Source of the DNA: Natronoarchaeum mannanilyticum
GTDB taxonomy: Archaea > Halobacteriota > Halobacteria > Halobacteriales > Natronoarchaeaceae
Reading direction: 5' to 3'
DNA: 64,000 bases
Assembly: GCF_039522665.1 (NCBI RefSeq)
Contig: NZ_BAAADV010000003.1
Span: 1-64,000, forward strand
The position numbers and the translations under genes are program-made. Shown here piece after piece: positions 14,414 through 45,997 of this stretch (the stretch's first letter is position 1; every line of letters starts with the position of its first letter). The notes beneath the pieces are model-generated. The model had not been told where the DNA came from and ran no database searches. It was given only the letters and a program-made list of their open reading frames with translations.

Positions 14414-14605
14414 ATGGCCGTCTTCGAGGACTGGTTCGACTACTACGCGCTCGCCTGCGGCGTGCTGGCGCTGTGTGGCGCCGCCGTGGCGGTGTACGGG
14501 ATGCTCACCGACGCGTCGGCGACGATCGTCGGCGGCTCGGTGCTGACCGGCGGCGCCGGCGCGGCGCTGCAGTTCGGCGTCGTGCGGCGGGACGCCGGAG
14601 AGTAA
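14414..14605 (+). CDS. small membrane protein with 3' end altered by a hairpin insertion
   Basis: This 63-residue protein starts MAVFEDWFDYYALACG and has two hydrophobic helices (LACGVLALCGAAVAVYGML and ATIVGGSVLTGGAGAALQFGVV). It ends VVRRDAGE followed by TAA, which lies inside the first hairpin of the repeat block at 14591-14738. If the block is removed, the frame continues RRDA-DED and stops at 14756, so the present last residues (GE) probably come from the insertion. Function unknown. Confidence 0.65.
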   Translation: MAVFEDWFDYYALACGVLALCGAAVAVYGMLTDASATIVGGSVLTGGAGAALQFGVVRRDAGE

Positions 14606-14738
14606 AAGCTCTCCGAGCCCTGACTCGCAGGCTCGTCAGGACGCCAAAGCGCAGAGCGCTTTGAGCCCTCCTTCGCAAGCTCAGGAGGACGCCGGAGAGC
14701 AAAGCTCTCCGAGCCCTCGCTCAGCTTCGCCTCGCGAG
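14591..14738. repeat. three tandem ~49-bp units, each with two hairpins
   Basis: The units run 14591-14639, 14640-14687 and 14688-14738, each opening with GACGCC and a seventh partial unit boundary at 14739 repeating GACGCC. Each unit has the order GACGCC, hairpin, GAGCCCT or similar, second hairpin, AGG. Examples of perfect stems with three-base loops are GGAGAGC-AAA-GCTCTCC (unit 3) and AAAGCGC-AGA-GCGCTTT (unit 2). Stem sequences differ between units with compensating changes, which points to selection or a copying process acting on structure. Confidence 0.85.
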
Positions 14739-14809
14739 GACGCCGACGAGGACTGAGATCCGCACCGGGTGCGCTACCTTCATCACGCCGCGGTCGCTAC
14801 CGCAACTCG

Positions 14810-44533: not shown

Positions 44534-45997
44534 TCAGGCCGCGCTCGCGGACGCCGCCGGCGCCGCTGCGAGGACCGGTCCCCCAGCGTCGGCCGCGGCA
44601 GTTTCGAGCACCGCCTGCTCGTCTTCGCCGTCGGTCATGTTGCCGCCGTCCGTGGCGTTGTCGTCGCCCGCTGCGACGACGTCACCGTCACTCGCGTTCT
44701 CCTCGTCGGTCGTCACGGTGGCGTCGTCGGTCACGTTCGCTTCGTCGTCGGTTTCATTGTCGTCGCCGACCACCGCACCGTCGTCAGTCTCGTTATCCTC
44801 GCCGATCGTCGCGCCGTCCGTCTCGTTGTCGTCGGTCGCGTCGTCAGCCATCCCGCCCGCGATCGAGACGTTGTCGATCGACCAGTCGTCCGCGCTGGCG
44901 TTCCCGATCGTGACGTTGCCGGCGCTGAGCTGTTCGATCGTGACGTTCTGGCTTCCCGTCTCGTTCTGGGCACCGCTGACGTTCGTCTCGGCGGTGGCGT
45001 TGTCCTCGGTCTCGTTGTCGTCGCCGAGGATGCCGTCGTCTTCCGTCTCGTTGTCGTCGGTTTCGTTCGCGCCGACAGTGTCGTTCTGCATGCCGGCGGT
45101 GATCTGCCCGTCCATCTCGCCGCCCATGCCGATCTGCATCGACTGGGCGGACATGTGGTGGACGGTCATCTCGGTGACGTCGAACTGCTCGATGGTGAGC
45201 GAGTGAATCTGCATCTCACCGCTCTCGTTCATCGCGGACGCGTTGGCGCCGGCGGTGGCGTTGTCCTCGGTCTCGTTGGCGCCGGCGGTGGCGTTGTCCT
45301 CGGTCTCGTTGGCGCCGGCGGTGGCGTTGTCCTCGGTCTCGTTGGCGCCGACGGTGGCGTTGTCCTCAGTGTCGTTGTCGTCGCCGAGGATGCCCCCGTC
45401 GTCGGTCTCGTTATCGTCGCCGCCGAGGATTCCGCCGTCGTCCCCGGTCTCGTTCTGCGCGCCGGTCTCGTTCTGCATCGACTCGTTCATCTGGGCGTCC
45501 TGACCGACCGTGAGCTGTTCGATCGTGAACTGCTCGACGCTCATCTGCTCGATCGTCACGTTCTGGACGGTCATCCGCTGGCCGTCCGACGCGTTCGACT
45601 CGTTCATCGTGAGGGCCTCCGTGTCACCCTCGAGTTCCTCCATCGAGACGTTCTCGAGCGAGAGGTTCTGGAAGTGGACGCCCTCGAACATCAGGGACGC
45701 CTGATCCTCGGACGCCATCTCGTCGCTCGCGTTCTCGCCCAGCTGGACGCTCTGGACGTCCAGTTGCTCGATGGTCACGTTGTGCAGCGTGGCGTTCTGT
45801 AGTTCGAGCGTCCCCGCGCTGGCGTTCTGGACGGTCGCGTCCGTTCCGTTGTCTGCTGTGTCTGTTCCGTCGTCCGTCGTATCGTCTTCCTGGAATCCCG
45901 CGTCGCCCGCCGCGCCCGCGATCCCGGCGACTCCCATGCCGGTCGCGACGAGCACGACGACAAACACGACTCCAAGTTTGTGCAATGTAGCTCTCAT
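44534..45997 (-). CDS. secreted, sequon-rich surface protein with pentapeptide-like repeats
   Basis: This 487-residue protein starts MRATLHKLGVVFVVVLVATG, a Sec-type signal peptide ending near AGAAGDAG. About forty N-x-S/T sequons follow. Blocks with five-residue periodicity, such as VTIEQ-MSVEQ-FTIEQ-LTVG and LTIEQ-FDVTE-MTVHH, look like short beta-helical (pentapeptide-like) modules. They are separated by Asp/Glu/Thr/Asn-rich linkers. A 33-bp unit is repeated four times (45243-45374), encoding NETEDNATAGA repeats. The C-terminus ends in an Ala/Pro/Ser tail with no clear membrane anchor. Start: the ATG at 45997, not the one at 46108. Role unknown. Confidence 0.82.
   Translation of the reverse strand: MRATLHKLGVVFVVVLVATGMGVAGIAGAAGDAGFQEDDTTDDGTDTADNGTDATVQNASAGTLELQNATLHNVTIEQLDVQSVQLGENASDEMASEDQASLMFEGVHFQNLSLENVSMEELEGDTEALTMNESNASDGQRMTVQNVTIEQMSVEQFTIEQLTVGQDAQMNESMQNETGAQNETGDDGGILGGDDNETDDGGILGDDNDTEDNATVGANETEDNATAGANETEDNATAGANETEDNATAGANASAMNESGEMQIHSLTIEQFDVTEMTVHHMSAQSMQIGMGGEMDGQITAGMQNDTVGANETDDNETEDDGILGDDNETEDNATAETNVSGAQNETGSQNVTIEQLSAGNVTIGNASADDWSIDNVSIAGGMADDATDDNETDGATIGEDNETDDGAVVGDDNETDDEANVTDDATVTTDEENASDGDVVAAGDDNATDGGNMTDGEDEQAVLETAAADAGGPVLAAAPAASASAA
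45243..45374. repeat. 33-bp tandem repeat, four units, within the sequon-rich gene
   Basis: Units at 45243-45275, 45276-45308, 45309-45341 and 45342-45374. The first three are identical and the fourth has a few changes. They encode an in-frame acidic peptide with two sequons per unit, so copy number can change without frameshift. Confidence 0.9.

Follow-up and report, generated by a model that had tools for sequence, protein, structure and literature searches.

A small membrane-protein gene ending in a palindromic block

The window, a stretch of 64,000 nt from Natronoarchaeum mannanilyticum (contig NZ_BAAADV010000003.1, positions 1 to 64,000), contains a small membrane-protein gene whose 3' end runs into a block of three head-to-tail units (Table 1). 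The units are 49, 48 and 51 nt long, and GACGCC stands at both boundaries of the block. Each unit is composed of GACGCC, hairpin 1 with a 7-bp stem and a short loop, GAGC, and hairpin 2 with a 6-bp stem of the form CCTNNN/NNNAGG, followed by the next GACGCC. An earlier note on this DNA had described three units with two stems each, quoted two perfect stems, and placed GACGCC at the opening of every unit and again behind the last; all of these are present. Compared with 200 dinucleotide shuffles, the strand of the block folds more stably (z = -3.99). The hairpin 1 loop reads TAAAA in unit 1 and CAAA in other copies, and because of this extra base the block measures 148 nt, which is no multiple of three. 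Discounting the extra base, the block is 147 nt long, or 49 codons.

Table 1. Features at the palindromic block of the window
Feature	Position	Strand	Description
Small membrane-protein gene	14414..14605	+	From the ORF list; 63 aa, MAVFEDW...VVRRDAGE, stop
Unit 1	14591..14639	+	49 nt; covariance model 72.3 bits, E 1.6e-14
Unit 1, parts	14597-14614 (hairpin 1); 14619-14640 (hairpin 2)		GACGCC tag, hairpin 1, GAGC, hairpin 2
Unit 2	14640..14687	+	48 nt; covariance model 52.9 bits
Unit 2, parts	14646-14662 (hairpin 1); 14667-14688 (hairpin 2)		GACGCC tag, hairpin 1 (AAAGCGC-AGA-GCGCTTT), GAGC, hairpin 2
Unit 3	14688..14738	+	51 nt; covariance model 71 bits, E 3.4e-14
Unit 3, parts	14694-14710 (hairpin 1); 14715-14739 (hairpin 2)		GACGCC tag, hairpin 1 (GGAGAGC-AAA-GCTCTCC), GAGC, hairpin 2
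Right-hand GACGCC and displaced native gene end	14739..14756	+	GACGCC GAC GAG GAC TGA; matches the end of the congener's orthologue, GACGCCGACGACTGA

The small gene has no match in Pfam or NCBIfam, and among 146 genomes of the order it has a homologue only in the same genus. This orthologue, in the congener (genome G001; the window's own genome is G000), is 74% identical (E = 2e-26). It ends in ...TACGACGCCGACGACTGA and has one GACGCC without the block. Therefore, the block is an insertion, and one GACGCC existed before it. The junctions in the window read CGGGACGCC, the units, and GACGCCGACGAGGACTGA, and excising the 148 nt yields ...VVRRDADED and a stop. The proposal that the block is an insertion bounded by GACGCC, whose removal restores the frame, is thus supported by a relative that has the gene and not the block.

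The stop codon of the small gene is the TAA at 14603-14605, within the loop of hairpin 1, and the protein ends in DAGE. The same loop codon is a stop in three other C-terminal cases, which are C7:648083, C1:1438202 (replication factor C), and L196 in the congener. The usual loop codon is CAA, CAG or CGA, a single C-to-T change from a stop; hence the element can supply a stop codon at gene ends. GTAG REPs have been reported to donate stop codons to genes (PMC3733652). The copy in the window, with its TAA ending the gene in the hairpin 1 loop, represents a decayed insertion at a C-terminus. Elsewhere in the window, positions 45241-45377 hold a 33-bp tandem repeat (4.2 copies, 97% matches) that is unrelated to the palindromic insert.

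Distribution of the family

The unit is present at about 50 further places in its own genome. There, blastn gave 43 matches, and a covariance model built from 46 units, on which the copy counts rest, gave 64 matches (E <= 0.01) in about 55 arrays. Matches were found by DNA comparison in 10 of the 21 genomes searched. The covariance-model search proposed in the earlier note matched the family across genomes of the order: all nine genomes of the taxonomic family are positive with 4-62 copies each, as are 96 of 141 good genomes of the order. A phylum sample of 247 genomes gave 25 positives, all of the same order; roughly 200 genomes sampled beyond the order were without a match. An exact search of 84,980 bacterial and archaeal genomes for a common 31-nt version of the element recovered it from haloarchaea alone, namely Halorientalis, Natrialba, Natronorubrum, Halobacterium, and uncultured Halobacteriales. 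No copy was found in the viral and plasmid sequences searched. In the samples searched, the element is restricted to one haloarchaeal order. Weak model matches such as C1:1153320 in a TFB-like gene (23 bits) are native sequence of the same length in the relative and were not counted as insertions.

Distinct from the palindromic unit, an intergenic repeat several hundred bases long recurs at about ten places in the own genome (L030, L033-L038, L097, L100 and L103; for example L035:1130-1930). It is composed of a tandem part, GAAAGCCCTCGGCCCGC, together with CCCTTTCAG and GC-rich hairpins, and holds a related two-hairpin core ending in ACGCC or ACACC.

In-frame insertion into protein genes

Most copies whose surroundings could be read are within genes. 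A codon model was trained on genes of the window and used to determine the frame of the arrays flanked by confident coding sequence on both sides. In 33 of 36 such arrays the element lies on the coding strand (+) in phase 0, and the array length is a multiple of three in all 36; as many of them are kinase sites, not all are independent. At least three arrays are in an opposite-strand frame, and some copies are intergenic. Read in plus phase 0, the 48-nt unit encodes D-A-x-E-Q-S-S-x-S-P-x-S-Q-A-R-Q, and the 51-nt unit its longer version. Only this frame of the six yields the polar, acidic DADEQSSSSPDSQARQ peptide, and the remaining ones are mostly arginine-rich or interrupted.

Alignments with relatives show gaps of exactly the unit length. 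Gaps of 51 nt are seen for acyl-CoA dehydrogenase, TrpC, GH68, C1:1346026, and histidine phosphatase, and gaps of 48 nt for GNAT, threonine synthase, C3:125203, and histidine kinase. Domain searches identified the hosts as GNAT acetyltransferase, acyl-CoA dehydrogenase, indole-3-glycerol phosphate synthase, a GH68 enzyme, threonine synthase, histidine phosphatase, replication factor C, and a dCTP deaminase-like protein; hosts elsewhere include glutamyl-tRNA synthetase, CbiE, and MutL. Four sites (C1:270435, C1:825874, C2:120715, and C7:648083) are filled in both species compared. As several sites are common to different species, part of the family is old. The element adds 16-17 amino acids that are apparently tolerated, without breaking the host gene.

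The acyl-CoA dehydrogenase insert is shared, at one identical site, by three genomes from two genera (C1:161170 in G000, L184 in G005, and L251 in G003), and this site is empty in the congener and others; gene transfer, repeated insertion or loss could each account for it.

The earlier note had the insertion and the kept pairing right, and missed that the element is dispersed and protein-coding. Its placement at the 3' end of a gene holds for the window, but is one case among many sites of the family, and a role at transcript ends is therefore not its general function.

Target site and kinase hot spot

The 48/51-nt unit, which comprises hairpin 1, GAGC, hairpin 2, and ACGCC, lies directly 3' of a target (R)ACGCC, so that it has ACGCC at either side. 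In a set of 82 coding arrays, 36 have GACGCC as left tag, 24 have AACGCC, and 8 have GACACC. The N-boxes of sensor histidine kinases are hit repeatedly in many genera, with VEHGSTSPDSQARQDA standing between NA and VEHG. At these kinase sites the left tag AACGCC is formed by the native Asn-Ala codons of the NA[VI]EH box and the right tag is GACGCC; hence ACGCC occurs on both sides, the left one belonging to the target and the right one to the element. One sensor-kinase N-box (L222:1458-1700) carries five consecutive 48-nt units that are nearly identical at the protein level, which is probably a case of recent tandem growth.

At 49 independent non-kinase sites, the first six bases of hairpin 1 resemble the six bases right of the insertion more closely than expected by chance (3.49 against 3.13, p = 0.00005), also at third codon positions (p = 0.00015), and controls with other flanks were negative. 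The p value is 0.001 when shuffling is confined within genomes and 0.03 for G000 and G001 alone, and the resemblance could partly reflect genome-specific codon use. Near-perfect direct repeats between hairpin 1 and the right flank are seen at L206, L300, L112, and L215. These sequence comparisons are suggestive of ACGCC and a few further bases being used or duplicated upon insertion. We judge it quite unlikely that every insertion creates a new hairpin 1 out of target sequence, with ACGCC and about six following bases duplicated and an inverted copy of them added. Were it so, the element would take part of its structure from the host, which would account for the likeness between arm and right flank, the great variety of stem 1, the perfect pairing, and the scarcity of one-sided changes.

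Covariation of the stems

The stems had been noted to vary between units while pairing is kept. This holds for the family, with 95-96% of cells paired against about 74-76% in shuffles. In copies outside the model, 96.3% and 95.8% of pair cells are standard-paired, compared with about 74% in shuffles and less than 45% when slid; copies were collected with pairing filters or a structure model, and these counts lean toward paired copies. Cells changed on both sides outnumber those changed on one side by 198 to 3 and by 250 to 10 in the copies outside the model, and the changes are almost always from one Watson-Crick pair to another. There are fewer G-U cells than A-C mispairs (6 vs 14 in alignment A1, 3 vs 21 in A2). 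The scarce G-U pairs together with the both-side changes therefore point to pairing at the DNA level or copying from arm to arm, and not to selection on a coding-strand RNA. Arm-to-arm copying has a parallel in the coding palindromes of hairworm mitochondria, for which template switching has been proposed. Neither hairpins lacking the insertion pattern in relatives nor an absence of covariation, which the earlier note had named as grounds for giving up its reading, was found.

Mode of spread and alternative explanations

The family is dispersed, its 48/51-nt insertions are in frame against empty orthologous sites with one strongly preferred strand and phase, and its stems covary strongly. We consider it, with a probability of roughly 0.8, a haloarchaeal non-autonomous palindromic element with coding capacity that would be mobile. 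It would move as DNA with its single strands folded, through an enzyme acting in trans, a step for which we see about even odds. Landings that break a gene would be purged by selection, and those in frame of the polar peptide DAxEQSSxSPxSQARQ would survive at surface turns and termini. Insertion next to ACGCC is, on the best reading, tolerated because the encoded peptide is polar. Tandem arrays might subsequently expand via slippage or recombination, and the stems may keep their perfect pairing either as a requirement of movement, which would need the fold, or through re-copying of one arm from the other. An array of three units would have landed at the C-terminus of the small membrane protein in the window, the loop codon would have become TAA, and the remainder would be decaying as untranslated DNA.

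As to the enzyme, a single Y1 transposase and six TnpB-domain matches are found in the own genome. A remnant of IS200/IS605 type, that is, a terminal-only PATE- or REP-like repeat whose hairpins are recognised by a Y1 transposase, would fit two hairpins and a specific short target, both suited to recognition of a folded single strand, and PATEs are known from haloarchaea. However, no copy in the own genome lies within 3.6 kb of a TnpA or TnpB gene, and its sole Y1 gene is more than 30 kb from any copy. G003, G004, G006, and G008 have no Y1 match and carry 4-39 copies; G004 has neither Y1 nor TnpB, yet 18 copies. Moreover, PATEs are reported to lack target duplication, whereas the element has ACGCC at either side, and we regard such a remnant as unlikely. 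REPs of the GTAG type with a RAYT transposase were rejected on the distance of the Y1 gene and on the lack of GTAG at the ends. Spread could alternatively be self-templated and need no dedicated transposase, if template switching at replication forks copied the folded unit by microhomology of ACGCC and a few bases, a process that would also keep stems perfect and make tandem arrays. In its favour are the resemblance between the 5' arm of hairpin 1 and the bases right of the insertion, the almost complete lack of one-sided pair changes, the near-identical tandem units of L222, and the lack of a nearby transposase. Nevertheless, this resemblance is modest (3.5 vs 3.1-3.2 of 6, with the higher p value in G000 and G001 alone), and dispersal among unrelated genes and genera is easier via an enzyme; we hold it to be a tentative alternative.

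Two further explanations place selection on a product of the unit. An RNA-level element, such as a terminator, an mRNA stabiliser or a small RNA, would have its transcript structure selected, in agreement with the stable folds and with the window copy now lying behind the new stop codon and ahead of the next gene. Copies are mostly inside ORFs, though, and the rank of G-U pairs below A-C mispairs is the opposite of what coding-strand RNA selection leaves. The window block has no T-run on its 3' side, and the best Rfam matches, at 20 bits (threshold 38) and 15.1 bits (threshold 60), are below the curated thresholds and not near them. The terminator or RNA role was rejected on the intragenic location, the few G-U pairs, and the missing T-run, and is scarcely credible. 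It is also very improbable that the unit is a linker repeat selected for its peptide, with palindromy as a by-product of codon choice. The fixed frame and the polar, halophile-like peptide would suit a linker, but the peptide does not explain the covariation of paired positions, the hosts are unrelated enzymes whose relatives lack the insert, and intergenic copies occur.

Relation to known palindromic elements

The element is best read as a non-autonomous mobile palindrome that works like the Rickettsia palindromic elements (RPEs) and apparently forms a separate haloarchaeal family. The traits of Rickettsia-type coding palindromes, a dispersed palindromic family and in-frame insertion in unrelated genes against empty relatives, are both found here. 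As in RPEs and the Wolbachia coding palindromes, short palindromic repeats lie in frame in unrelated, often housekeeping genes, add a peptide, and come in several families and copies. RPEs are about 100-150 bp long, whereas the present element is a 48/51-nt GC-rich two-hairpin unit. It also differs from them in its preference for (R)ACGCC, its hot spot in the kinase N-box, and its occurrence in haloarchaea only in the samples searched. The statement in the earlier note that no named element has this layout needs qualification, since there is precedent for the kind; for this haloarchaeal coding palindrome family itself, we found no report in open-access text. The coding palindromic repeats of Methanocaldococcus jannaschii (Suyama et al., 2005), as described in papers citing that work, are likewise archaeal palindromic repeats whose open frames are fused into protein genes, in another class of Archaea.

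CGTC-tagged REPs (Di Nocera et al., 2013, PMC3733652) are similar in having hairpins beside GGCGTC on the complementary strand, intragenic copies, and no associated transposase. The tag of these REPs is an unpaired CGTC at one end of the hairpin; GGCGTC is present on the minus strand of the unit, but the C that ends it already pairs, as the first paired base in hairpin 2. In contrast to the head-to-head units of these REPs, with 8-9 bp stems opening with A-T and a CCA tail, the units here are head-to-tail, with stems of 6-7 bp that open with C-G/C-G and G-C and no CCA tail (alignment A1). Archaea are missing from the phyla listed for them. The same authors report two RPE families that end in CGTC and lie within genes, without a transposase. 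According to the excerpted text on Haloquadratum (PMC3119063), its PATEs and small mobile repeats (SMRs) are also haloarchaeal and transposase-free, and PATEs have near-terminal palindromes. Different from the present element, in that text SMRs are about 110 bp with terminal inverted repeats, PATEs are tied to IS605-type ends without target duplication, and in-frame coding insertion is not described for either.

Implications

In-frame "selfish" coding palindromes have so far been mainly a curiosity of Rickettsia and Wolbachia, which are themselves difficult to manipulate. A family present across most of a haloarchaeal order, with dozens of copies, clear empty sites, a target motif, and cultivable hosts, would make the movement, tolerance, and stem upkeep of such elements directly testable; laboratory strains such as Haloferax volcanii are available. 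Annotation and protein modelling now treat these inserts as ordinary sequence. Through the element, small insertions arise steadily in core enzymes, including GluRS, TrpC, MutL, replication factor C, and sensor kinases.
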